Assembly: GCF_009674665.1 (NCBI RefSeq) | Contig: NZ_WKJD01000012.1 | Location: 124,001 to 188,000 of the forward strand | Direction: 5' to 3' | DNA length: 64,000 nt | Source: Agromyces kandeliae | GTDB taxonomy: Bacteria > Actinomycetota > Actinomycetes > Actinomycetales > Microbacteriaceae | In this document: positions 15,261 to 27,961 of the stretch, piece by piece | Numbering within the stretch: the first letter of the stretch is position 1 | Layout of the letters: every line of letters begins with the position of its first letter | Notes under the pieces: model-generated | Seen by the model: only the letters and a program-made list of their open reading frames with translations | What the model was told of the DNA's origin: nothing | The model's database searches: none | Translations under genes and position numbers: made by a program

Positions 15261-17930
15261 TCAGCCGCCGTCCGTCGGCACCGGCCGCCCGAGCGCGTAC
15301 TCGACGGCCTGCGCCAGGTCCATGGCCATGCCCGCCCGGTAGAGCGGCTCGAGGTCGTCGCGGCTCGGGTCGATCTCCTCGATCGAGAGACCGCGGATCC
15401 GCGTGATCTCGTGGTCGACGATCTTCGCGCCCGACGAGTTCCTGAGACCGCGCACGGCGCCCGCGAGCCGGGCCGCCCGCTCCTCGTCGTCGGCCGCCTG
15501 CGCGAGCGCCGCGGCCAGCGACAGGAAGAGCACGACGGCCGAGACGTCGCGGTGCGGTGCGAAGAGCTCGAGCCCCTCCTCGAGGTAGTCCCACGCCGTG
15601 GCGATGTCACCGAGCCTCGCGGAGAAGATCGCGACCTCGAACATGCCCCACCCCATGCCGAACTCGTTGCCGGCGGCCCGATAGTGGTCGATGCTGCGAT
15701 GGAAGAGCTCGAGCGACTGCTGGACGTCGTCATCGAGGTCGGACACGGCGAGGCCCCTGCCCCACGTGATGTTCCCGAGCCCGTTCTCATCGCCCAGGCT
15801 CCGGAAGATCTTCTCCCCCTCGTCGTAGAGCGCGTAGACCTCGGTGCGCACCTCGTCGGTGATGCCGGTGGTCACGGCGGCCACGGCCTGCCCGATCGCC
15901 ACGTTGTAGATCGCGTTCGCGATCTCGGCGGGCTCTCCGAGTTCGCGTTGGATCGCGAGCGCCTCGCGGTAGGGCGGCACGCATCGCTCGATCTCACCCT
16001 GCCACCAGTACACCCCGCCGAGCGCCTCGAGGGCGCGGGCACGGTTGAGCGGTTCGCCGCCGGGGAGCGAGACCACGGTCTCCAGCCGGCTCCGACCCTC
16101 GTGCAGGTGGCCGCGCGACTGCCAGAAGCGCCACGATGCGGCGGCGAGCCGGAGCGCGAGGTCGGTCTCCCCGTGCACGGCGGCCCAGTCGAGCGCGGTT
16201 CGGACGTTGTCGTGGTCGGCGTCGAACCGGTCCAGCCAGGCGGATCGGTCCTCTCCCAGGACGTGCGCGGCGACCTCCTCCGCCCAGGCGACGTACGCCT
16301 CGAGGTGGCGCCGGTGCACGGCCTCGCCGGTTCCGCTCGCCTCGAGCTTCAGCAGCGCGACCTCGCGGATCACGTGCAGCGTGCGGAAGCGCGCCCGGCC
16401 GCCCGGTGCTGCGACCTGCCGGAGCAGCCCCTGGTCGACGAGCTCGGCGAGGCCGCCCAGCAGGTCGACGTCGATGTCGTCGCACACCCGCTCGATCTGC
16501 TCGAGGTCCGCGCCGCCGGCGAAGACCCCGAGGCGTGCGAAGAGGTCCTGCACGGGCGGGTCGAGCAGGTCGTGGCTCCACTCGATCGCGCCCTCGATGG
16601 TCCGCTGCCGCTCCGGGAGGTCGATCGTCCCGGTGCCGGGCCGGGCCGGGTCGAGCCTGGCGAGGATCTCGGGCACCGGCAGCAGCCGCACGCGCGACGC
16701 GACGAGCTCGATCGCGAGCGGGAGACCGTCGAGCCCGCGCACCAGCTCCGAGACCGCGGCAGCGTTCTCCGGCGTCACCGTGAAATCGGGTCGGACCGCC
16801 ATGGCGCGGTCGACGAACAGCGCGACGGCGTCGGTGTCGGTCGCCCGGCTCACGTCGCGCCGGTCGGGGAGGTCCATGGGCTCGAGGGGCATCTCCTGCT
16901 CGGCGGCGATCCGGAGGGGCCCACGGGACGTGACGAGGAAGCGGGACCTCGGCGCGACCGAGACGAGGTCGGCGACGATCGGCGCCGCGGGGATGAGCTG
17001 CTCGAAGTTGTCGAGGATGAGCAGCACCTCGAGGTCGCCCATCCGCTCGAGCAGGGCGTCCCGCGGCGGCCGGTTCCCGGGCGACGAGTCCTCGCCGAGG
17101 GCGCGGAGGATCTGCGACGGCACGACCTCCGGATCGTCGACCGGTGCGAGGTCGACGAAGAACACCCCGTCGCGGAACTGCCCGCCGACCTCGGAGCCGA
17201 CCTGGAGGGCGAGCCGGGTCTTGCCCGTTCCGCCCGTGCCGGTGACGGTCACGACGTGCGAGGACTCGAGCAGCTCGCGGACCCGGGCGCGTTCGCGTCG
17301 TCGCCCGACGAAGTGGGTGACCTGCGCCGGGAGGTTGTTCGGCACGGCCTCGAGCGACCGCAGGGCGGGGAATCGGGCGTCGAGCCCGGTGATGTCGAGC
17401 TGGAAGATGCCCTCGGCCTGCGACAGGTCCCTCAGGTGGTGCCGGCCGAGGTCGTGGAGCACGACGTCGACCGGCAGCTCGTGCTCCACGAGCGCCGCGG
17501 TCGACGCGGACAGCACGACCTGCCCGCCGTGCGCGGCGGCCATGATCCGAGCGGCGCGATGGACGTCGAGCCCGATGTAGTCGTCTCCGCCGAGCAGCCC
17601 CAGCCCGGTGTGCAGTCCCATGCGGACCTTCGGCGCGAGCCCCTCGGGCCAGTCGTGACCGGCGATCCCCCGTTGGGCCGCCACCGCCGCGGTCACGGCG
17701 TCGATCGCCGAGGCGAAGGCCGCGAAGAACCCGTCGCCCTCGGTCTTGACCACGGTGCCCCCGCTGCCCGTGATGGCCTCGCGGACCAGTGCGTCGTGCT
17801 CCGCGAGCAGCGTCGGCCACCGCTCACCGGCAGCCTCGACGAGGCGGGTCGATCCTTCGACATCCGTGAACAGGAAGGTGACCGTCCCCGTCGGGAGACG
17901 ACGACGGCTCGTGGCAGCCGTGGTGGTCAC
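15261..17930 (-). CDS. adenylyl/guanylyl cyclase-domain, STAND ATPase and TPR fusion protein
   Basis: 889-residue signalling protein. Class III cyclase domain at about 14-180: metal aspartates Asp23 (FTDVEGS) and Asp66 (KTEGDG), and Lys62, the residue that normally selects adenine, are present. In the transition-state motif the usual Asn is His124, while Arg128 remains. A STAND/NB-ARC ATPase follows with Walker A GTGGTGKT at 231-238 and Walker [11 protein letters not shown] near 310, then an Ala/Leu-rich TPR-type region from about 560 to the end. There is no DNA-binding domain of the LuxR type. Mycobacteria carry many such fusions with weak or unknown cyclase activity. Cytoplasmic; stimulus unknown. 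Confidence 0.9.
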
Positions 17931-18011: not shown

Positions 18012-19142
18012 TCAGCGTCGCGTCGAGGCCGTGACCGTGAACTTCGGGTTGCGTGCGATCTCCCGGGTCGGACCGACGATGCGCTCCAGCATCGGTCGGT
18101 AGCGCAGGTGCGAGTTCCACACGCACCAGAGCTCGCCGCCGGGCGCGAGCACCCGCGCGGCCTCGCCGAACAGGTGCGTCGCGATGCCCGTGTGCACGGC
18201 GGCCTCGGAGTGGAACGGCGGGTTCAGCACCACGAGCCGCTCGCTCGCGTCGGGGAGGTGCTCGAGGCCGTCGGCGCGCGCGACGTCGACGCGGTCGGCG
18301 ACGCCGTTCGCGGCCGCGGTGAGCGGGGCGGATGCCGCGGCCGCGGCGCTCCGGTCGGAGGCGCGCACCACGAGCCCGGGGCGCTCGCGCGCGAGCCAGG
18401 CGGCGACGACGCCCGAGCCGCAGGCGAGGTCCACGGCGGTCCCGGCGTCGGGCACCGCGCCGCCGAGCACGCCGAGCAGGAACCGGGTGCCGATGTCGAC
18501 GGTCGTACCGGCGAACACCCCGCCGTGCGCCACGACCTCGAGCCCGAGGGCGGCGTCGCGCGCACTGCGCGGCCAGGGCGTCGAACGGGACGGATCCGGC
18601 CGCGGGGCGGTCGCGACGAGCACGCGCGACTTCTGCCGGGCGTGCGTCACGTCGAGATGTGCGAACCACCGGTCGAGCACGTCGTTCATGGCGAGCGACA
18701 TGTGCTTGATGCGGCCGCCGGCGAACACCCGCACGTCGGGTGCGGCGTGCCCCGCGATGAGCCCGGCGACCTCGTCGAGCCGGTCGAGCGCGCGCGGGAG
18801 CCGCATCAGCACGACTCGGGCATCGGCGACGAGCTCGGGCTCGAACGGAAGGCTCGTCGGGCGCTCGTCGGCGGGCAGGCCCAGCCGCTCGGCGTTCTCG
18901 CGAAGCGCGCGCTCACCCGTGATCGGGTCCTGGTGCACGCGGACGCCGCGCGCACCGGCCGCGACCGCGCCGAGCGCGAGCGCCCCGTACGCGTCGTCGA
19001 TCACGACGACCGAACCCTGCACCGGCGCCGCTTCGGCGAGCGCGGTCGCCGACTCGTCGAGGATCAGCCGGTCCGCGGCATCCGCCGCGGCCAGCCCCGG
19101 CGCCTCGAGGTCGGGATGCCGTCGGAGCGCATCGAAGTCCAC
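18012..19142 (-). CDS. RlmG/RsmC-like rRNA guanine-N2 methyltransferase
   Basis: 376-residue two-domain methyltransferase. An N-terminal degenerate methyltransferase-like half is followed by a catalytic half with motif I AVDLACGSGVVAAWLA (about 240-255) and the N2-guanine motif NPPFH near residue 310. This fits the RsmC/RlmG group that methylates 16S G1207 or 23S G1835; which of the two cannot be decided. The GTG start lies six bases after a TAGGGT -10 box, so the message is probably leaderless. Confidence 0.85.
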   Translation of the reverse strand: MDFDALRRHPDLEAPGLAAADAADRLILDESATALAEAAPVQGSVVVIDDAYGALALGAVAAGARGVRVHQDPITGERALRENAERLGLPADERPTSLPFEPELVADARVVLMRLPRALDRLDEVAGLIAGHAAPDVRVFAGGRIKHMSLAMNDVLDRWFAHLDVTHARQKSRVLVATAPRPDPSRSTPWPRSARDAALGLEVVAHGGVFAGTTVDIGTRFLLGVLGGAVPDAGTAVDLACGSGVVAAWLARERPGLVVRASDRSAAAAASAPLTAAANGVADRVDVARADGLEHLPDASERLVVLNPPFHSEAAVHTGIATHLFGEAARVLAPGGELWCVWNSHLRYRPMLERIVGPTREIARNPKFTVTASTRR

Positions 19143-19248
19143 CCCGGAACCCTACCCGCGCAGCATCCGCCGAATCTCCCCCGAACGGGGCGCACGGCGC
19201 CACCCGCCACAGGACTATCGTCACGGCCAAGCCTGGATGGGGGGAGCC

Positions 19249-22200
19249 ATGGCCGCCGTCGTCGAACGTGCCTCGGCATCGTCCGTGGCAGGGCGGGCCC
19301 GCGCCGCCGACGAGCTGAAGCGGTGGGTCAAGTCCCGGCGGCCGCGCACGATGCGCGCCATCGTCGCGGTCACGGTGGCGCTCGCCGCGATCATCTCGCT
19401 CGCCGAGATCGACCGGCTCATCGCCGGCGCGCTGAGCGCCACCGGACGCAGCGCGTCGCTGAACGGCACGATCGGGCCGCTCGCACTGCTCTCCCGGGAG
19501 AGCTGGTCCGAATGGGCGTCGAGCGCGAGCCGCGGTTCGATCGGCGGATGGATCATCGCGTCGATCCTCATCGACCTGGCCCTCATCGTCGCCTACTTCT
19601 GGATGGCGAAGCGCATCATCGCCCGGATGGGCGACGAGGATCCGCGGCGGTACGCGCACACGACCCTCATCGTGCTGCTCGGCGTCGAGGCGGCCGAGTT
19701 CGTCGTGCTGCTCGCGGCAGCGCTGCTCCTCGTGTTCGGCGGGGCGCCGGTCCCGGCCGACCAGGCGGGCCTCCTGGCGCCGCTCGGTCCGATCGCGATC
19801 ACCGAGGCCGCGCTCGGCACCCTCAAGTGCGCGCTCATCCTGCTGCTGGCCGTCTTCGTCGTGCGCGACGCCCTCGCTCGGCGGATCATCTGGACCGCCG
19901 TCCGCCGGCTCGCGCAGGCGCTCTGGCTGCACCGGCTGTCGGCCGTGCTGGTCCTCGCCCTCGCGGTCCTCACGTGCATCCCCACCGAAGGCGTGCTCGA
20001 CCAGCTTCCGGACCTGCAGCGCCGGTGGGCGGCGTTCGACGGCGCGGCCGGTCGGCACATGGCCCTCGCCCTCGTGGCGATCGCGATCGCCGTGCTCTGC
20101 GCCTGGTCGCTCGGCCGGGCGCGCACTCGCGCACTCGCCTCGGGGGTCCGGGGGTTCGACGTGACCGAGGTGACGCCCCGCCGCGTGCACGCGCTGTGGT
20201 GGCTCGCCCCGATGATCGTCTGGCTCGTGCTCTGGGTGGTGACGGGGTCGCTGACCGGCGCTTGGGTGCCCGGATGGTCGGCCATCGTGTTCCTCGTCGT
20301 GCCAGCGCTCGTCATGCTGACCTGGCTGCGCTGGCCGGATGCCGCGTGGAAGATCACTCCTCGGATCGACCGCCTCGACCGCGCGCGCTGGGCGTGGCTC
20401 ACGGGCGACGCCGTCGCCGTCGCCATCCCGGTCATCGCGGGACTCGGGCTCGTGCGCTCGTTCACCGCGCCCGTGTTCGCCGGGCGGCTGCCGAACGACG
20501 CCGCGGAGCGGTATCCGCTCTCCATCGTCCTGCTCCTGCTCGGGCTCGCGATGGCGGTCGCCTCGCCGTGGCTGCTGCGGTGGAAGTGGCACGTGCCGGT
20601 GCTGCTCGACCCGACCGTCCGCGTGGACGCGGACGCCGGGGCGCCGCGGCGACGGCGGATCCACGTCATCGTCATCGTGCTCGGGTTCGCCGCCGGGCTC
20701 CTGCTGCTCGCGTGGATCGGCCTCCTGCCTGTGCAGACCGCCGCGCTCTTCGGGGCACCGGCGCTCGCGGTGCTGCTCCTCACCGCGTGGGGTGCGGTGC
20801 TCGGTGCCTTCACGGTCGTGCTGCAGGACCACCCGCCCGCGCCCGTCTTCCGGTTCCTGCGGCTCCGTGCGGATCCCGTCCTCACGCTCGCCATCACGAT
20901 CCCGCTCATCTGGGCGATCATCGCGCCGGTGGTCGGTGCGGACGACGTCGGCCTGCACGGCGTCCGCACGGGGGCGGTCGCGTCGAAGGGCGATCCGGTC
21001 GCGGCGCGCAACGCCGACGACTCGTTCGAGGACCAGGTGGACGATCGGTTGGGCACGCTCGCCCGCGCCGGCTGCACGGCCACCGTCGGCGATGCGGAGT
21101 TCACTCCGGCGCTCGTGGTCGCCGCCGAGGGCGGCGGCATCCGCGCCGCGTACTGGACCGCGCGGGCGCTCGACCAGCTCCGCGGTCGCGTCGACGAGCC
21201 GGACTGCATCGCCGCCTCCGTACTGCTGTCGAGCGGCGTCAGCGGCGGGTCCGTGGGACTCGCCGTCGCCGCCGCCGGTGAATCGGACGAGGTCCGTGCA
21301 GCGACGGAGCTCAAGCGGCTCGCGGGACCGGACGCCGTCGGCACCGGCGCCGCGTCGCTCATGGTGGGCGATCTCGTCGCCTCGGTGACCGGGCTGCGCC
21401 TCCCGTCGAACGTCGCCGGCGAATGGGCGTGGCGCGACCGCGCGGCCCTCATCGAGGACGTGTGGGTTGACGCCGTGAACGGACTCGAGGCCACGGTCGC
21501 GCTCGAGGCGAACGACCGCGTCGGCATCCCGGTGCTGAACTCCACCGACATCCGCTCGAAGTGCAAGGTGCTCGTCTCGAACGGGCTCACGACCGAGGCC
21601 GGGCCGACACCCGCGCCGCCGACGACGTCCGGCGCCGGCGGTGCGGCGCCCGACGACGACCCGGACGCCGCCGCCGCCGCGGTCGAGGCCGACCCGAGCA
21701 TCGGATGCGAGACGCCCGCGACGGCTCCCGCGGCGAGCCTGCCCGTCGCGTCCGCGTGCTTCTCCGACATGGATTGGGCGACCGCGGCGATGCTCTCCGC
21801 GCGCTTCGCCGTGATCACGCCGGCCGCGCGCATGCCGGGCGAGAGCGTCTGCGGCAACGCGAGCATGCAACTCGTCGACGGCGGCTACGCGGAACCGTCG
21901 GGCCTCGGCACCGCCGCCGACCTGGCGCCGGTCATCGCCGACCGCATCGCGGCGTGGAACCGCGAACACCCGACCGCGGATCCGATCGTGCCGATCCTCG
22001 TGTACCTGAAGAACTCCGCCGGGTACGACCTCCGACGCAACCTCGAGGACGTGACCGCCGAGCCCCTCGTCCCGCTCGTGGGGTATCCGGCCCTGACGAA
22101 GGCCGCCACCGAGCAGGCGCTGCGACAGCGGGTGACCGCGGCGTTCGTGACGATCGGCGAGGTCGACGAAGGCGACGCCACGACGGCGGACGCGGAGCCG

Positions 22201-22455
22201 ACGGCCTCGAACGAGGGCTCCGAGAAGGCGGCTCGCGCGATCGAGGAAGTGCAGGACTGCGCGAACCCACGATGCCTGCCGGGCCTCGAGGTCATCGTCG
22301 CGCCGTCCACCGTGCCCGCGGTGATGCCGCCGCTCGGCTGGGCGCTGAGCGGCTTCAGCATCGGGAGCCTCGACCGCGCCATGCTGGTGCAGACGGAGAA
22401 GTCGACGACGGACGTGCCGAACCTCCGCACGCTGCGCTCGCTCACCGAGGACTGA
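19249..22455 (+). CDS. large membrane protein with C-terminal patatin-like phospholipase domain
   Basis: 1068 residues. The first 560 residues hold many hydrophobic helices in several groups (for example about 43-61, 104-124, 141-165, 185-205, 320-365, 395-425, 480-500, 530-560). The C-terminal part carries all patatin signatures: oxyanion loop GGGIR at 628-632, nucleophile elbow GVSGG with Ser665, and the catalytic Asp877 in DGGY. An Ala/Pro/Asp-rich insert lies near 785-815. A lipid acyl hydrolase acting at the membrane is therefore likely, but I know no characterised protein with this layout. GGGGGAGCC precedes the ATG. It is a single-gene unit. Confidence 0.8.
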   Translation: MAAVVERASASSVAGRARAADELKRWVKSRRPRTMRAIVAVTVALAAIISLAEIDRLIAGALSATGRSASLNGTIGPLALLSRESWSEWASSASRGSIGGWIIASILIDLALIVAYFWMAKRIIARMGDEDPRRYAHTTLIVLLGVEAAEFVVLLAAALLLVFGGAPVPADQAGLLAPLGPIAITEAALGTLKCALILLLAVFVVRDALARRIIWTAVRRLAQALWLHRLSAVLVLALAVLTCIPTEGVLDQLPDLQRRWAAFDGAAGRHMALALVAIAIAVLCAWSLGRARTRALASGVRGFDVTEVTPRRVHALWWLAPMIVWLVLWVVTGSLTGAWVPGWSAIVFLVVPALVMLTWLRWPDAAWKITPRIDRLDRARWAWLTGDAVAVAIPVIAGLGLVRSFTAPVFAGRLPNDAAERYPLSIVLLLLGLAMAVASPWLLRWKWHVPVLLDPTVRVDADAGAPRRRRIHVIVIVLGFAAGLLLLAWIGLLPVQTAALFGAPALAVLLLTAWGAVLGAFTVVLQDHPPAPVFRFLRLRADPVLTLAITIPLIWAIIAPVVGADDVGLHGVRTGAVASKGDPVAARNADDSFEDQVDDRLGTLARAGCTATVGDAEFTPALVVAAEGGGIRAAYWTARALDQLRGRVDEPDCIAASVLLSSGVSGGSVGLAVAAAGESDEVRAATELKRLAGPDAVGTGAASLMVGDLVASVTGLRLPSNVAGEWAWRDRAALIEDVWVDAVNGLEATVALEANDRVGIPVLNSTDIRSKCKVLVSNGLTTEAGPTPAPPTTSGAGGAAPDDDPDAAAAAVEADPSIGCETPATAPAASLPVASACFSDMDWATAAMLSARFAVITPAARMPGESVCGNASMQLVDGGYAEPSGLGTAADLAPVIADRIAAWNREHPTADPIVPILVYLKNSAGYDLRRNLEDVTAEPLVPLVGYPALTKAATEQALRQRVTAAFVTIGEVDEGDATTADAEPTASNEGSEKAARAIEEVQDCANPRCLPGLEVIVAPSTVPAVMPPLGWALSGFSIGSLDRAMLVQTEKSTTDVPNLRTLRSLTED

Positions 22456-22537: not shown

Positions 22538-23362
22538 ATGCGAGACACGGCAGGTCCACCGGGGGAGCGCCGCGCGGCGAGGGGATCGACCACGCGGCGT
22601 CCGTCGTCGGCGCCGTCGGGGCGCCGGGTCGCACCGACCGCGTCGCCCGGTCGGGACGCGGCGTCCGCTCGCCGGGTTCCAGCGCCGCAGCGCCGTCGTG
22701 CGGCGTCCGTCCGCCCACGTCGCCGGCGGCTCGGGAATGCACTCGCGGCGACCGCCGCGGTCGCCGGCATCCTCGCGACGCTCGCCCTCGCACCGCTCCC
22801 GCGCGCGAGCGCGCCGATCGCGGAGGCGTCCGTCACGACCGTCTCGCCGTTCTCCGGCGCCGTGCAGGAGGTCGAGGTCGATGGCGACGTCGCGCCCGCG
22901 AGCGTGTCGCGCGAGGGCTACTCGACGACGACCGGGCCGGAGACCCTCGTCGACTCGGGCACGAACTACGACTGGGCGAGGCTCGTGCTCGTGTTCGGCG
23001 ACTGGCCGCTCACCGACGAGAACGTGCGGCTCATGGTCGAGTGGATGCGCGAGGAGAACGGCCCCGACAACTGGTGGAACCGCAACAACCCGCTGAACAA
23101 CGGGTACGGCTCCGGCGGCGGCAGCGGTCTCGGGAGCTACGACACGCTCGTGACCGCGGCCGAGTACGCGGCCTCGAACCTGAAGAAGCGCTCGTTCTAC
23201 GCCGGCATCGTCGCGGGACTCGAGGCCGGCACCTCGGCGGATGCCACGGCTCGCGCGATCTGGGCCTCGCCGTGGGCGTCGAGCCACTACGGGAACGGTG
23301 CGTGGTGGTCGACGGCGCCCGTGCCGGTCGTCGCCGCACCCGCGTCGGCCTGGGGGCGCTAG
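22538..23362 (+). CDS. secreted or membrane-anchored protein with lysozyme-like domain, tentative
   Basis: 274 residues. An unusually long Arg-rich N-terminus (about 1-66) precedes one hydrophobic helix (LAATAAVAGILATLALAPLP, about 69-88) ending in an Ala-rich possible cleavage site. The rest is extracellular: WMREENGPDNWWNRNNPLNN followed by SYDTLVTAAEYAASNL resembles small muralytic domains seen in actinophage and cell-wall proteins, but catalytic residues cannot be assigned. A TAGGTT box ends ten bases before the ATG and there is no ribosome site, so the start is nearly leaderless. Its TAG stop shares the CTAG tetranucleotide with the stop of the convergent arsR gene. Confidence 0.6.
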   Translation: MRDTAGPPGERRAARGSTTRRPSSAPSGRRVAPTASPGRDAASARRVPAPQRRRAASVRPRRRRLGNALAATAAVAGILATLALAPLPRASAPIAEASVTTVSPFSGAVQEVEVDGDVAPASVSREGYSTTTGPETLVDSGTNYDWARLVLVFGDWPLTDENVRLMVEWMREENGPDNWWNRNNPLNNGYGSGGGSGLGSYDTLVTAAEYAASNLKKRSFYAGIVAGLEAGTSADATARAIWASPWASSHYGNGAWWSTAPVPVVAAPASAWGR

Positions 23363-23724
23363 CCGTCGGCGAGGAGCTGCGACATCCGGTCGAGCGCGCC
23401 CGGCACCAGCTTGTAGTACGCCCACGTGCCGCGCTTGCTGCGCTCGAGGAACCCGGCCGTGGCCAGGATCTTGAGGTGGTGCGAGACGGTCGGCTGGCTG
23501 AGGCCGACGGGCTCGATGAGGTCGCACACGCACGCCTCCTCGCCTTCGGACTTCGCGACGATCGACAGCAGCCGCAGTCGCGTCGGGTCGGCCAGCGCCT
23601 TGAACGACGATGCGAGCTGCTCGGCGCGCGCGGCATCCATCGGCTCGGTCACGAGCGGGCTGCAGCACGCCGCACCGGTGTCGGCGGACCCGACGCCGAC
23701 CGGCGTGAGTTCGAAGGTCGTCAT
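23359..23724 (-). CDS. arsR: ArsR/SmtB-family metalloregulator
   Basis: 121-residue winged-helix repressor. The As(III)-type metal motif CVCDL is near residue 54, followed by the recognition helix SQPTVSHHLKIL; an extra Cys pair is present near residue 20. It probably represses itself and the divergent flavin monooxygenase through the 22-base palindrome between them. The start ATG gives a normal-length protein; the longer open frame upstream runs through the divergent promoter and is not real. Confidence 0.92.
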   Translation of the reverse strand: MTTFELTPVGVGSADTGAACCSPLVTEPMDAARAEQLASSFKALADPTRLRLLSIVAKSEGEEACVCDLIEPVGLSQPTVSHHLKILATAGFLERSKRGTWAYYKLVPGALDRMSQLLADG

Positions 23725-23776
23725 GCGACCGATCCTACCTCGAATATTGACAAACTTCGATGTACAGGTCGACACT

Positions 23777-23798
23777 GATATCGAAGAACTTCGATATC
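23777..23798. promoter_or_regulatory. perfect 22-base ArsR operator palindrome
   Basis: GATATCGAAG, two bases, then CTTCGATATC. A further half-site (AACTTCGATGTA) lies at 23753-23764, just after TTGACA at 23747-23752. It stands between divergent arsR and the monooxygenase gene, whose AGGAAGG ribosome site follows. Confidence 0.8.
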
Positions 23799-23814
23799 CC
23801 CAGGAAGGCCCGCC

Positions 23815-25131
23815 ATGACCCTGCTCGACCTCACCCGCCCCGCGACGCGCTCCGAGCGCCTCGACACCCTCCCCGTCGCGGTGATCGGCGCCGGCCCGAT
23901 CGGCCTGGCGGCCGCGGCCAACCTGCTCGAGCGGGGCATCGACGTCGTGGTCTACGAGGCCGGCGACCGGGTCGGCGCGAGCATCCGCGAGTGGGGCCAC
24001 GTCCGCCTGTTCTCACCGTGGCGCGTCCTCGTCGACCCCGCGTCGCGCCGCCTGCTCGAGGCGGCCGGATGGAAGCACCCCGACGAGGATCGACTGCCCA
24101 CCGGCGCCGAGCTCGTCGAGCAGTACCTCGAGCCGCTCGCCGCCCTCGAGCCGCTCGCGTCGCGCATCCGCCTCGGCGTGGACGTCACCGCCGTCGCCCG
24201 CGAGGGCATGGACCGGACCCGCACGGCCGGGCGCGCGGCGACGCCGTTCCTGCTGCGCGTGCACGAGGCATCCGGCGAGGTGGAGGACGTCGCGGCGCGT
24301 GCCGTCATCGATGCGTCGGGCACCTGGCGCACGCCCAACCGGCTCGGCTCGAACGGCCTGGACCCCCTCGGACTCGACGAGGTCGCGGACTCGGTGACGC
24401 ACGCGCTGCCCGACGTGCTCGGGCGCGACCGCGCCCGCTTCGCCGGTCGCCGCGTGACGGTCGTCGGTGCGGGGCACTCGGCCGCGAACACGCTGCTCGC
24501 ACTCGCCGCGCTCGCACGCGAGGAGCCGGAGACCAGCATCACCTGGGCGATCCGCAACGCCTCCGCCGTCCGCGTCACGACCTCCGACGACGACGGGCTC
24601 CCCGCCCGCGCCTCGATCGGGCGCCGTGTCGACGACCTCGTGCACGCCGGACGCATCGAGGTGCTCGACCGGTTCGAGATCGTGCGCCTCGGCCGCGCCG
24701 CCGACGGCGGCGTGCGCATCGTCGGCTCGCGCCGCGGCGAGCTCGTCGACCACGAGGCCGACGTCGTCGTGAACGCGACCGGCTTCCGCCCCGACCTCGA
24801 CCTGCTGCGCGAGATCCGGCTCGAGCTCGACGACGTGGTCGAGGCGCCGAAGCGACTGGCGCCGCTCATCGACCCGAACGTGCACTCATGCGGCACGGTC
24901 GAGCCGCACGGCTTCGCCGAGCTCCGGCAACCCGAGGACGGCTTCTTCCTCGTCGGCATGAAGAGCTACGGGCGGGCCCCGACGTTCCTGCTCGCGACCG
25001 GCTACGAGCAGGTGCGCTCGATCGCGTCCTGGCTCGCGGGCGATGCCGCCGGCGCCGCGAAGGTGCAGCTCGAGCTGCCGGCGACCGGCGTCTGCTCGAC
25101 GAGCCTCGACGGGTCGAACGGCTGCTGCTGA
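23815..25131 (+). CDS. flavin-dependent monooxygenase of the ars cluster (ArsO-like)
   Basis: 438-residue two-dinucleotide-binding flavoprotein. FAD motif GAGPIGLAAAANLLERG is at about 25-41 and the NADPH motif VVGAGHSAANTL near 220-231; the ATGF-type motif NATGFRPD follows near 319. The C-terminus ends in a Cys-containing tail (GVCSTSLDGSNGCC). Such proteins, often called ArsO, occur in actinobacterial arsenic operons and are presumed to oxidise an arsenical or a thiol adduct; the reaction is not established. Divergent from arsR and therefore probably arsenite-inducible. Confidence 0.85.
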   Translation: MTLLDLTRPATRSERLDTLPVAVIGAGPIGLAAAANLLERGIDVVVYEAGDRVGASIREWGHVRLFSPWRVLVDPASRRLLEAAGWKHPDEDRLPTGAELVEQYLEPLAALEPLASRIRLGVDVTAVAREGMDRTRTAGRAATPFLLRVHEASGEVEDVAARAVIDASGTWRTPNRLGSNGLDPLGLDEVADSVTHALPDVLGRDRARFAGRRVTVVGAGHSAANTLLALAALAREEPETSITWAIRNASAVRVTTSDDDGLPARASIGRRVDDLVHAGRIEVLDRFEIVRLGRAADGGVRIVGSRRGELVDHEADVVVNATGFRPDLDLLREIRLELDDVVEAPKRLAPLIDPNVHSCGTVEPHGFAELRQPEDGFFLVGMKSYGRAPTFLLATGYEQVRSIASWLAGDAAGAAKVQLELPATGVCSTSLDGSNGCC

Positions 25132-25164
25132 GCCCGGCGGGCCGGCAGCGGCGTCCGCCGCATT

Positions 25165-25184
25165 GCATAGACTTGCGTCTATGC
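25165..25184 (+). promoter_or_regulatory. operator/promoter of the ArsR-ArsC fusion gene
   Basis: Perfect 8-base arms GCATAGAC and GTCTATGC separated by four bases. The palindrome contains a TAGACT -10-like box and ends inside the ATG, so repressor binding would cover both promoter and start of a leaderless message. The same design recurs before arsC at 26164. Confidence 0.75.
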
Positions 25185-26083
25185 ACAAGGGTGGGGCGGA
25201 TGCCGCGGCCGGCGGCCTGGCGCTGATCGCCGACCCCACGCGGGCGCGCATGCTCTCGCTCATCCTCACGAGCCCGGACGGCCGCGCGACCGTGACGGCG
25301 CTCGCGGACGAGCTCGGCCTCCGGCAGCCGACGGTCTCGCACCACGCGAAGGCGCTGCTCGACGACGGCGTGCTCGTGCGCGAGCCGGACGGGCGCCGGG
25401 CGTGGTACTCGGTCGCGCCCGATCACCTCGATCGCGTGACCGAGCTGCTCGACATGCCGGCGGCCGAGTCCCGCCCCGACGACGAGGCCGCGATCGTGCG
25501 CGTCGTCGACGATCTCGCGACGCGGTTCGCGGGCACGTTCGGCCGCGAGACGGTCGAGCGCTACGTCCGCGAGAGCCGGGACCTCCTCGCCGAGCGGAGC
25601 GGCGTCTCGAAGCGGTTCACGTCTCGCGCAGCGGCGTTCGCCGCCGAACGTCTCGCGGCCCTCGCCGCCCAGGCACCCGAGTCGGGCGGCGCCGCGCCCG
25701 AGGTGCTCTTCGTGTGCGTGCAGAACGCCGGTCGCTCGCAGATGGCCGCCGCGATCCTGCGGCATCTCGCGGGCGACCGGGTGCACGTGCGCACCGCCGG
25801 GTCGGAACCCGCCGACGCCGTGTCGCCCGCCGTCGTCGGGGTGCTCGACGAGATCGGCGTGCCCGTCGGCGGCGCCTACCCGAAGCCGCTGACCGACGAG
25901 GTCGTCCGCGCGGCCGACGTCGTGATCACGATGGGGTGCGGCGACGCGTGCCCCGTGTATCCCGGCAAGCGCTACGAGGACTGGGAGCTCGACGACCCGG
26001 TCGGCCGGCCGCTCGGCGACGTCCGCGGCATCCGCGACGACATCGATCGGCGGGTGCGCGAGCTCATCGCGAACCTCGCCTGA
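25181..26083 (+). CDS. ArsR-type regulator fused to arsenate reductase
   Basis: 300 residues in three parts. Residues about 10-85 form a winged helix (RQPTVSHHAKALLDDG) without the CVCDL metal motif. About 90-150 (TFGRETVERYVRESRDLLAER) match the three-helix segment that precedes many actinobacterial ArsC proteins. Residues 170-300 are a low-molecular-weight-phosphatase-type arsenate reductase with nucleophile Cys179 in VCVQNAGRS and the later MGCGDACP motif. The fusion suggests that sensing and reduction are linked, perhaps with the reductase cysteines taking part in derepression. The repressor half probably binds the CATAGAT/ATCTATG-type operators before its own gene and arsC. Confidence 0.9.
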   Translation: MHKGGADAAAGGLALIADPTRARMLSLILTSPDGRATVTALADELGLRQPTVSHHAKALLDDGVLVREPDGRRAWYSVAPDHLDRVTELLDMPAAESRPDDEAAIVRVVDDLATRFAGTFGRETVERYVRESRDLLAERSGVSKRFTSRAAAFAAERLAALAAQAPESGGAAPEVLFVCVQNAGRSQMAAAILRHLAGDRVHVRTAGSEPADAVSPAVVGVLDEIGVPVGGAYPKPLTDEVVRAADVVITMGCGDACPVYPGKRYEDWELDDPVGRPLGDVRGIRDDIDRRVRELIANLA

Positions 26084-26102
26084 GTCGGCCCGGACTCCGC
26101 GG

Positions 26103-26122
26103 TCGGCGGCGCCCGCCGCCGA
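26103..26122 (+). terminator. GC hairpin after the ArsR-ArsC gene
   Basis: Nine-base arms TCGGCGGCG and CGCCGCCGA with a two-base loop, nested in a GGCCCGGA/TCCGGGCC outer pair. There is no U-tract. It separates the fusion gene from arsC, which has its own operator. Confidence 0.5.
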
Positions 26123-26163
26123 TCCGGGCCCGAACCGGCCGCCGCGGCATCCGCTCGACATTA

Positions 26164-26181
26164 CATAGATCACAATCTATG
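26164..26181 (+). promoter_or_regulatory. operator upstream of arsC
   Basis: CATAGAT, four bases, ATCTATG. It has the same half-site core (CATAGA/TCTATG) and four-base spacing as the site at 25165, so the same repressor, most simply the ArsR-ArsC fusion, probably controls both genes. Confidence 0.7.
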
Positions 26182-26212
26182 CTTTAGGCGTCCCGAGCGA
26201 AACGAGGTCCCG

Positions 26213-26632
26213 ATGTCCGACAAGCCCACCGTCCTGTTCGTCTGCGTGCACAACGCCGGACGATCCCAGATGGCCGCCGGCTACCTGCGCGAGCTCGGCG
26301 GCGACCGCGTCGAGGTGCTCTCGGCGGGCTCCGCCCCGAAGGACGAGATCAACCCGGTCGCCGTCCAGGCGATGGCCGAGGAGGGCATCGACATCGCCGG
26401 CAACACCCCGAAGGTGCTCACCACCGAGGCCGTGCGCGAATCCGACGTCGTGATCACCATGGGCTGCGGCGACGCGTGCCCGATCTTCCCCGGCAAGCGC
26501 TACGAGGACTGGGAGCTCGACGACCCGGCCGGGCAGGGCATCGACGCCGTCCGCCCCATCCGCGACGAGATCCGCCGCCGCATCGAGGAACTGCTCGGCG
26601 AGATCGCGCCGGTCCCGGCCTCTCGAGACTGA
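26213..26632 (+). CDS. arsC: arsenate reductase ArsC (phosphatase-fold type)
   Basis: 139-residue low-molecular-weight protein-tyrosine-phosphatase-type arsenate reductase that converts arsenate to arsenite. The nucleophile Cys11 is in VCVHNAGRS and the second cysteine pair in MGCGDACP near residue 85; the RYEDWELDDP motif is typical of the actinobacterial group that uses mycothiol or thioredoxin. It is about 65% identical by eye to the reductase half of the neighbouring fusion, suggesting duplication. The next gene is convergent and starts its stop four bases away. Confidence 0.94.
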   Translation: MSDKPTVLFVCVHNAGRSQMAAGYLRELGGDRVEVLSAGSAPKDEINPVAVQAMAEEGIDIAGNTPKVLTTEAVRESDVVITMGCGDACPIFPGKRYEDWELDDPAGQGIDAVRPIRDEIRRRIEELLGEIAPVPASRD

Positions 26633-26635
26633 CCG

Positions 26636-27961
26636 TCAGGCCGTCGGCGGACGCTCGGACGAACCGGACTCGGTCGCCGTCGCGGCATCCGCACTTGGCA
26701 GCACCGGCTTCGGCACGATCCGGAACTCGGGCGCCCTCGAGACGAGCAACCACGCGGGCAGGATGACCACGCAGAGCCACGGGAGGAGCGCCAGGTCGCC
26801 CGCGACCGCGGCGGCGACGAAGAGCGCGAGCCATCCGTCCCTCGCGACCACCAGCAGGATGCCGATCAGCGCGCTCGCCACGCACAACGCGATCGGCAGG
26901 GACGGGATCAGGGTGTGCGCGAGGATGCCGAGCGCGGCGCCGATGAAGGCCGCGGGGAACACCCGGCCGCCGCGGAACGCGGCACTCGCCGCCACGATGA
27001 GCGCGACCATCTTCACCAGGACGATCACGACGAGCTGGCCGGCGTCGTAGGCATCGGGATCCTCGAACAGCTCGGCCATCTGGTCGAGGCCCTTGAACAG
27101 GGTGATCGGGCCGCCGATGAGCCCGAGCAGCCCGAGGACGAGACCGCCCGCAGTCGCGATGAGCAGCGGCTGCCGGAGCGAGTGGAAGAGCCGGTGCACG
27201 ACCGGGAAGGCGTATGCGCCCACGAGGCCCAGCACGACCGCGACGCACGCGATGACGATGCCCGCGAGGAGGAGCATCGGCGTCGTGGGCGCCGTCGGCA
27301 GCGTGAACTGGAGCGGCGGGGCGCCCAGCACGTGCATCGTGCCCGCGGCGGCGGCCGCGGCGGCGAGCGGCAGGAACAGCTTGTCCCACAGGGCGCCGCC
27401 GCCGCGCACCGCGGCGAGCGTGCCCGTGAAGAGCAGCGCAGCGGCGACCGGCGAGCCGAAGAGCGCGCCGATCGTGCCGGCCGCGGCCATCAGCATCCCG
27501 AGACGCGCGCCGACGCGCGGCATCATCCGGCCGAGGAGCGCGACGGTCAGGGCCACGTTGATGGCGATGATCGGGTTCTCGGGGCCGAGGCTCACCCCGC
27601 CCGCGAGCGCGAGCCCGGTGACGATGGCGAGCCCGGGCAGCGTGCGGAGCTTCAGCGGCTCCGAGACGAGTTCGGTCGTGGCGGAATCCGGTCCGCCATG
27701 GCCCGGCAGGAACTGGAGCCCGAGGCCCACCGCGAACCCGGTCGCGGTGAGCACCACGACGATCCACCAGCCGTCGGGATCGACGCCCAGCGCGTCGGGC
27801 AGGGTCGTCCAGAGCACGCCCTGCAGTGCGCCGGCCGCGACCTCGAGCGCACGCAGCACCAGCGCGCAGAGCGCGCCGATGACGATCGCCGGGATGAGGA
27901 GGAGCAGGAGCTGTCGCGGCGTGGGCGGCGGCAGCGGCGCCACGTCCGAGTCATCCGTCAT
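26636..27961 (-). CDS. ClC-family ion channel/transporter (YfeO-like)
   Basis: 441 residues with about ten to eleven transmembrane helices. ClC selectivity-filter motifs are recognisable in altered form: GPENP (in place of GREGP) at about 125 and GSPVAAALLF at about 168, plus FRGGRVFPAAFIGAALG near 336. The protein lacks CBS domains. This is the YfeO-type branch whose ion (chloride, fluoride or other) is not established. It is convergent with arsC and has its own GGGGGAGG ribosome site, so membership in the arsenic cluster is doubtful. Confidence 0.85.
   Translation of the reverse strand: MTDDSDVAPLPPPTPRQLLLLLIPAIVIGALCALVLRALEVAAGALQGVLWTTLPDALGVDPDGWWIVVVLTATGFAVGLGLQFLPGHGGPDSATTELVSEPLKLRTLPGLAIVTGLALAGGVSLGPENPIIAINVALTVALLGRMMPRVGARLGMLMAAAGTIGALFGSPVAAALLFTGTLAAVRGGGALWDKLFLPLAAAAAAAGTMHVLGAPPLQFTLPTAPTTPMLLLAGIVIACVAVVLGLVGAYAFPVVHRLFHSLRQPLLIATAGGLVLGLLGLIGGPITLFKGLDQMAELFEDPDAYDAGQLVVIVLVKMVALIVAASAAFRGGRVFPAAFIGAALGILAHTLIPSLPIALCVASALIGILLVVARDGWLALFVAAAVAGDLALLPWLCVVILPAWLLVSRAPEFRIVPKPVLPSADAATATESGSSERPPTA

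Follow-up and report, generated by a model that had tools for sequence, protein, structure and literature searches.

A polytopic membrane protein of Agromyces kandeliae with a C-terminal patatin half predicted to face outward

What does a patatin-type lipase domain do at the end of a long polytopic membrane protein, and on which side of the membrane would it work? The question is raised by a gene of the soil bacterium Agromyces kandeliae that lies in a 64,000-nucleotide stretch of contig NZ_WKJD01000012.1 (positions 124,001 to 188,000; assembly GCF_009674665.1), here called the window; the genome measures 3.78 Mb and the stretch belongs to its contig 4. All positions below are window coordinates and all residue numbers are those of the 1,068-residue window protein. 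The bacterial patatins known so far are for the most part cytosolic or injected, or leave the cell by way of a beta-barrel. An original prediction, made from the DNA alone, described a protein of about a thousand residues with some 560 residues of membrane helices ahead of a patatin domain, an architecture that it did not recognise, and suggested a lipid-remodelling or lipid-signalling enzyme embedded in the membrane. We find that the protein is real and is built in this order, with 13 predicted helices followed by a patatin half. We propose as the probable explanation that it is a polytopic membrane enzyme of about 13 helices whose C-terminal patatin domain, stabilised by disulfides on the outer face of the membrane, acts as an acyl hydrolase or transacylase.

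The reading frame has the features of a genuine gene, with full-length homologues and a GC content by codon position (0.73/0.54/0.94) that is expected of a coding gene in high-GC DNA. Its start at 19249 matches the aligned start of the nearest homologue; a simple gene caller picked an alternative, in-frame ATG at 19237. Because homologues occur across the Actinomycetota and the ratio of nonsynonymous to synonymous substitution rates (dN/dS) is 0.17-0.23 in four close pairs, the frame is not a product of chance, and the gene is under purifying selection. The more distant comparison of the window gene with L019, from A. bracchium, gives a dN/dS of 0.44. To collect relatives, we used two short motifs in a scan that covered genomes from 84,980 species. 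It found 138 stretches that encode a relative, and the best 80 were kept: 68 loci (L019-L086) bear actinobacterial titles and 12 (L087-L098) encode shorter proteins. Most of the loci contain full-length frames. The conservation counts below are based on a 63-row alignment of the window protein with 62 of the 68 actinobacterial relatives, from which L020, L038, L050, L056, L062 and L073 were excluded because they were duplicates, incomplete or doubtful.

All three motifs that define patatins, the GGGxR/K oxyanion hole, the GxSxG nucleophile and the DGG/A acid, are found in the C-terminal half as the GGGIR, GVSGG and DGGY that the original prediction had picked out. Residues G628-630, R632, S665 and D877 are invariant in the alignment (63/63), and I631 and Y880 are kept in 61 and 57 rows, respectively. 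A Pfam search, which had been suggested as a check, does return Patatin (PF01734) at residues 627-885 as the sole match at E <= 1, with an E value of 2.1e-5 and a score of 25.2 bits that falls under the curated cut-off of 27.7 (hmmscan). A six-frame search of the genome gave 28.7 bits, a score that includes neighbouring stretches in frame, and NCBIfam, searched at E 1, has nothing that matches the window protein. An AlphaFold2 model built from the 63-row alignment has a mean predicted local distance difference test score (pLDDT) of 87.5 and a predicted template modelling score (pTM) of 0.90. Foldseek finds three matches to this model in the PDB with E < 0.001, all of them chains of one patatin entry (1oxw, E 5.4e-4), and VIA-align superposes patatin-17 on residues 617-1068 (Z 19.6, root-mean-square deviation 5.0, 310 aligned residues), with iPLA2-beta, CapV, CapE, PlpD and cPLA2 at Z 16-19 to the patatin half. 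The model and both structural comparisons thus give a patatin fold around Ser665 and Asp877; the result named as one that would refute the original prediction, a predicted structure lacking this fold, did not occur. By its motifs and predicted fold the C-terminal half belongs to the patatins. Two further patatin loci are present in the same genome, a canonical patatin (L001, E 7.8e-33) and one in a 1,446-residue open frame (L002, E 1.1e-12). Profile comparison with the canonical patatin by hhalign aligned the DGG region only (probability 6.1%, and 0.9% for the short form described below) and adds little.

The side of the membrane on which this domain would lie can be read from the helices, the loop charges and the cysteines. 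When hydropathy is averaged over the family, 12 hydrophobic runs appear within residues 39-556, and the one at 478-520 is long enough for two helices; the AlphaFold2 model splits it into helices 466-492 and 503-526, for a total of 13. On family average, the loops alternate between K/R-rich and neutral or acidic, with the N-terminus inside. The inside segments average K+R/D+E counts of 4.2/3.4, 4.0/0.6, 4.7/0.8, 6.2/2.5, 4.0/3.4, 4.7/3.1 and 3.0/1.3, and the four longer outside loops 3.3/4.8, 0.8/2.8, 1.7/4.0 and 0.5/1.2. An inside N-terminus and 13 crossings would place the C-terminal half outside.

The cysteines, an independent line of evidence, point the same way. Their number in the patatin half is even in 63 of 63 rows (10 in 40 rows, 8 in 16, 6 in five and 12 in two), and in the membrane half of the same alignment it is even in 24 of 63. 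Six core positions are filled in every row (609, 653 or 655, 772, 820, 837 and 868). The cysteines beyond these six are always even in number though their positions shift, often 970 with 994 or 998; those of the window protein include 1004 with 1009. As a control, the other called genes at the same loci (at least 250 residues and at least four cysteines) split into 117 even and 81 odd, and six clusters of neighbouring genes were even in 5/12, 5/9, 11/14, 7/14, 5/10 and 0/10 members. Five of the six left-out rows are also even, as are 10 of 11 further homologues by a fixed cut. The simplest reading is that these cysteines form disulfides and hence that the patatin is extracytoplasmic. From the loop charges and the even cysteine counts together we infer an N-in/C-out topology with a disulfide-bonded domain, and the catalytic domain would very probably sit on the outer face of the membrane and not within it. 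The original prediction is partly supported: the patatin fold and the polytopic helical carrier hold, the membrane-embedded catalytic domain has to be revised, and signalling in the cytosol is an unlikely role for an outer-face patatin. A cysteine-parity count over an alignment is a simple and reusable readout of topology.

The membrane half probably does more than anchor the patatin, judging from conserved charges within its helices and conserved motifs in its outer loops. In addition to the positions listed in Table 1, R403, a charge within a transmembrane helix (TM), is kept in 59 of 63 rows and W260 of the outer-loop motif in 60. Folded alone, the membrane half gives a pLDDT of 89.1 and a pTM of 0.90. 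The best Foldseek match in the PDB has an E value of 0.43, and the best VIA-align matches are vinculin-type bundles at Z 9.3, in a range common for helical bundles. There is therefore no convincing PDB fold for the membrane half among the matches listed; at least one fifth of these spanned residues 33-224 only, and absence from among them neither excludes a fold nor proves a new one. Pfam has no match in this half of the window protein at E 1; DUF3549 matched one of 12 family members tested (E 0.0071), and DUF7670 matched the membrane part of one of 11 short relatives (E 1.4e-4, below its cut-off). Internal duplication was considered and rejected, as a profile comparison of residues 1-305 with 300-575 gave nothing (probability 0.2%).

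Based on these data, we propose that the 13 or so helices would hold the patatin domain against the bilayer at the outer face of the cytoplasmic membrane, where a lipid from the outer leaflet may reach the active site at the interface of the two halves. Attack by Ser665 on the acyl ester, in concert with Asp877 and the GGGIR oxyanion loop, would yield an acyl-enzyme, and the acyl group would then pass to water, making the protein a lipid acyl hydrolase, or to an extracytoplasmic or surface acceptor, making it a transacylase. The activity, the substrate, the lipid route and the choice between hydrolase and transacylase are all putative. Lipid remodelling, as first suggested, is a plausible role.

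Several observations weigh against this proposal. The Pfam Patatin match is weak, with three of 12 family members recovered at E 0.01 (and nine of 11 short relatives), and sequence searches gave no patatin among PDB sequences, where the window protein had no match at E <= 10; membership in the patatins therefore rests on motifs and fold. The count of 13 helices, and hence the odd parity, requires that the run at 478-520 be two helices, which comes from the model and is not resolved by hydropathy. The loop charges of the window protein taken alone are less clean (K+R 3 and D+E 2 in the outside loop 59-96; 3 and 3 in the inside segment 124-135), so that the family average carries the topology argument. 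As for the cysteines, the rows of the alignment are related and 63/63 stands for fewer than 63 independent events. One control cluster is odd in 10 of 10 members, which shows that shared ancestry can fix parity; the members of this cluster have 1 or 3 cysteines, however, while the numbers in the patatin family vary from 6 to 12 and yet stay even. Among the left-out rows L050 is odd, in a row that runs off its contig, and the further homologue L010 reads 9, with an insertion that moves the first core cysteine upstream of the fixed cut. Finally, there is no conserved partner that hints at a substrate, and no gene for lipids or wall polymers stood out among 14 representatives of the neighbour clusters.

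Is the architecture singular? The original prediction did not recognise it and asked for its phylogenetic spread; we find that it is not singular and belongs to a real, conserved, scattered and under-annotated family across the Actinomycetota. Shorter relatives occur in four other phyla, and one more relative is encoded on a plasmid of Nostoc. In a tree of 64 rows, relatives from one taxonomic family mostly cluster together, and the nearest named relatives of the window protein are those of Agromyces binzhouensis and A. bracchium. A search for relatives found a family member in 10 of 59 other genomes, 8 of 36 from the same genus and 2 of 23 from the same order. An order-wide protein search of an even sample, with at most five candidates scored per genome in the rows shown, found 4 of 149 including the genome itself, one of them weak (E 2.5e-7); a class-wide profile count of 2 of 197, again including the genome itself and with at most four candidates scored per genome in the rows shown, is not relied on. 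A phage or plasmid origin was rejected, given that no relative was confirmed in viral contigs and that plasmid records gave no match for the window protein or for an Arthrobacter homologue. The shorter relative L094 matches six plasmid records, none of which covers 80% of it. A fold search of a virus library gave no match under E 0.001. Two loci have labels at odds with their proteins. L043 lies on a contig titled as a metagenome-assembled genome of Rhodococcus with its lineage listed as Cyanobacteriota. In the tree its protein falls with those of Gordonia and Aldersonia, which suggests a mistaken lineage label or a mixed bin. L051 is titled Streptomyces sp. SID13031 and its protein groups closely with that of Kribbella catacumbae, which indicates a transfer or a wrong name.

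The 12 loci with shorter proteins are titled Verrucomicrobiota, Pseudomonadota, Desulfobacterota and Bacteroidota, and no name was found for these proteins. We aligned 11 of them, leaving out L091, which is nearly the same as part of L088. As called they have 662-866 residues, and all 11 share GGGIR, GVSGG or GISGG, and DGGY; most also have a DNHxxR-type linker (absent from L096), which the linker of the window protein matches, and a PLGWxLS-type end. By loop charges they have about seven TMs with the N-terminus in and the C-terminus out, a reading that takes one long run as two helices and in which the last loop is uninformative. They thus resemble the window protein in the last TMs, the linker, the patatin core and the C-terminal end, and differ from it in having about seven TMs instead of about 13 and in lacking conservation of the six core cysteines; the cysteine count of their C-terminal half, by a fixed cut, is even in 10 of 11 and mostly small (0 to 6). 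Given the shared motifs and a profile comparison that matches window residues 386-598 to short-form residues 111-290 (probability 95.7), the actinobacterial form looks like an extended version within a wider group of polytopic patatins. L094, aligned over 54% of its length, also led to WP_104902218.1, a protein of 1,023 residues that is encoded on a Nostoc plasmid and carries the annotation 'patatin-like phospholipase family protein'. By eye and not by alignment it is like the window protein in its hydrophobic N-terminal half, DNHRLR linker, GVSGG, DGGY and PLGWYLS, and it has GGGIF where the window protein has GGGIR.

Among known systems, the patatin-like phospholipases (patatin-17, PlpD, CapV, CapE, iPLA2-beta and cPLA2) share with the window protein the fold, the GGGxR/GxSGG/DGG motifs and a predicted Ser-Asp dyad. 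Unlike these, the window protein has about 13 TMs in front, belongs to a family with an even 6-12 cysteines, carries the extra PLGWxLS motif and is predicted to be extracytoplasmic. PlpD, of type Vd, has a POTRA domain and a 16-strand beta-barrel after the patatin, whereas the window protein has its helices at the N-terminus and ends in the patatin fold, with no beta-barrel in the secondary structure of the AlphaFold2 model. A parallel in size is offered by mycobacterial Rv3728 and Rv3239c, which we take to be polytopic proteins of about 1,000 residues that combine a carrier of the major facilitator superfamily (MFS) type with cyclic-nucleotide-binding and patatin domains, the patatin presumably facing inside. 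Rv3728 appears as a membrane protein among hypothetical lipases and esterases in one review (PMC10865251). Polytopic patatins of comparable size thus seem to be known already, but combined with other domains. In contrast to the Rv3728 type, the window protein has neither a cyclic-nucleotide-binding domain nor an MFS domain by Pfam at E 1, and its patatin is predicted to be outside. The roughly 55 residues between its last TM (561) and the patatin fold (617) are too few for a cyclic-nucleotide-binding domain, and no strong match to an MFS fold occurs among the matches listed for the membrane half. The architecture was not found described in the open literature on patatins that we searched, which is no proof of novelty as subscription journals lay mostly outside it.

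The genomic context indicates an accessory gene. The patatin gene is flanked on one side by a divergent methyltransferase gene and on the other by a gene for 274 residues (Table 1). Of the 22 further genomes of the genus that were searched, 12 have these flanking genes next to each other with no patatin gene between them (L102, L104, L106, L107, L110, L111, L112, L113, L115, L120, L122 and L126). In A. bracchium L019 the called genes have the same arrangement as in the window, and in genome G014, which is one of the 22 and is split over contigs, the patatin gene is as in the window and the contig of its locus L005 starts with a piece of the methyltransferase gene. Since the site is empty in 12 genomes and occupied in the window, L019 and G014, the patatin gene is gained or lost as a unit. 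Two of the empty-site genomes (G013 and G019) carry a family member elsewhere. At L101 an ArsR-type gene directly follows the methyltransferase, and eight of the 22 genomes have neither neighbour nor patatin in the examined stretch (about 1.5 kb each side).

A conserved operon partner was looked for and rejected, as neighbours cluster mainly by clade. In a clustering of the neighbours at the 80 loci and the window (genes called by a simple script, names assigned by eye from one representative each), the groups include gcvT-like (12 loci), CitE-type lyase (14), aldo-keto reductase (14) and MaoC dehydratase (12). Of the 80 loci, the 12 that have a gcvT-like gene at a distance of up to 8 kb are chiefly from Microbacteriaceae, and the CitE-like lyase and MaoC-like genes occur in Arthrobacter relatives; one cluster, in the Arthrobacter-type clade, is MurB-like. 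PADLOC gave no match at E 1 for the patatin protein or the 274-residue neighbour and partial matches only for two other neighbours (mads_2, mads_8, PycC, TPR and others). Nothing among the neighbours seen points to phage defence. As side observations, an arsenic-type cluster (23359-26632) lies beside the gene, and the window also encodes a regulator-like protein with a nucleotide cyclase head and an ion channel protein (Table 1).

Table 1. Positions of the patatin gene, its conserved features and the surrounding genes in the window
Feature	Position	Strand	Remarks
Polytopic patatin protein gene	19249..22455	+	1,068 residues and stop
Membrane half, 13 predicted TMs, N-in/C-out	19354..20931	+	residues ~36-561
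E53-x-D55-R56, outer end of TM1	19405..19416	+	E 56/63, D 47/63, R 46/63
D109, conserved acidic residue inside TM2	19573..19575	+	58/63
E150, conserved acidic residue inside TM3	19696..19698	+	61/63
K193, conserved basic residue inside TM4	19825..19827	+	59/63
Outer-loop motif DQLPDxxRxW	19999..20028	+	residues 251-260; Q252, D255 63/63
Linker motif D566xxxHxxR573	20944..20967	+	just past last TM; H570 63/63
C609, first of six patatin-half core cysteines	21073..21075	+	63/63; others C653, C772, C820, C837, C868
GGGIR oxyanion-hole motif	21130..21144	+	residues 628-632
Ser665, predicted nucleophile in GVSGGS	21241..21243	+	63/63
Asp877, predicted catalytic acid in DGGY	21877..21879	+	63/63
C-terminal PLGWxLS motif	22330..22350	+	residues 1028-1034; also in shorter relatives, with small departures
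RsmC/RlmG-type methyltransferase, divergent upstream neighbour	18012..19142	-	one side of empty site
274-residue gene, downstream neighbour	22538..23362	+	no match in Pfam (E 1); opposite flank of empty site
ArsR-family regulator	23359-24000	-	
Flavin monooxygenase, weakly like ArsO	23815-25131	+	under cut-off
ArsR and arsenate-reductase-type fusion	25043-26083	+	position of the frame
Separate arsenate-reductase-like gene	26213-26632	+	under cut-offs
Class III nucleotide cyclase-type domain, NB-ARC-type ATPase and TPR	15261-17930	-	889 residues; like an AfsR-type regulator with a cyclase head
NCBIfam 'Ion channel protein'	26636-27961	-	434 bits, cut-off 312

How do other explanations fare against this evidence? 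The protein may be a transmembrane acyl-transfer machine, in which an acyl donor, either a phospholipid or acyl-CoA, is bound or moved by the 13 helices and the patatin acylates an acceptor in the cell wall or at the surface; we consider this rather unlikely. The same layout is seen in two known groups of enzymes. Lnt has an exo-membrane nitrilase on eight TMs and takes acyl chains from phospholipids (PMC5500890), and OafB and OatA have an AT3 domain with an extra TM that places the SGNH domain outside (PMC9833829). The likeness to Lnt, a polytopic membrane domain with an outer-face catalytic domain that acts on bilayer lipids, is a comparison of how the proteins may work; Lnt is a nitrilase with eight TMs and a Glu-Lys-Cys triad, whereas the window protein is a patatin. 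The AT3-SGNH enzymes are likewise polytopic, with an odd last helix that puts a serine hydrolase or transferase outside, but neither AT3 (PF01757) nor SGNH was found by Pfam in the window protein (for AT3, no match at E 1 and no membrane-half fold match among the matches listed). As its predicted exo-domain is a patatin, the window protein is a member of neither group. The odd TM count that would put the hydrolase outside, the conserved TM charges and the outer-loop motifs fit acyl transfer. The membrane half, however, has no Pfam match and no convincing PDB fold, no wall or glycan genes are conserved among the neighbour clusters examined, barring the MurB-like one, and the conserved charges could be purely structural. 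The bolder idea that an undescribed 13-helix fold with a charge network (D109, E150, K193 and R403) feeds acyl groups to the outward patatin, which would acylate wall or surface molecules, seems to us unlikely; if true, it would be an independent invention of the Lnt/AT3-SGNH function using patatin chemistry.

We think it improbable that the membrane half just tethers a secreted-type lipase whose role is to scavenge lipids from outside the cell. The accessory distribution, both in the relatives search and at the empty site, would fit an optional nutritional enzyme, and the shorter relatives manage with about seven TMs, but 13 helices, conserved buried charges and outer-loop motifs are not needed for an anchor. 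A cytosolic-facing phospholipase in lipid signalling, like NTE/PNPLA6 or CapV and CapE of the CBASS defence system, is very unlikely. In structure, CapV, CapE and iPLA2-beta do rank with the best matches to the patatin half, but the even cysteines and the loop charges place the domain outside, the protein has no PADLOC match and no cyclic-nucleotide-binding domain by Pfam, and the conserved neighbours look like housekeeping genes; CapV and CapE are encoded beside a CD-NTase, and there is none among the window neighbours scanned by PADLOC. We therefore reject this explanation on topology. A pseudo-enzyme or decayed gene, to which the weak Pfam score and the match in 10 of 59 other genomes could point, is hardly credible against invariant catalytic residues, the low dN/dS of the four close pairs and full-length frames in most loci.

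The outward-facing, disulfide-stabilised patatin thus remains the explanation that we favour. Patatins are a known kind of enzyme; the interest lies in its predicted outward orientation, in a membrane domain without a match and in an architecture that we did not find described. The family is hard to see by annotation, as the NCBIfam and Pfam results illustrate. If our proposal is true, an outer-face patatin on a polytopic domain would point to an unrecognised step of extracellular lipid turnover or acylation.

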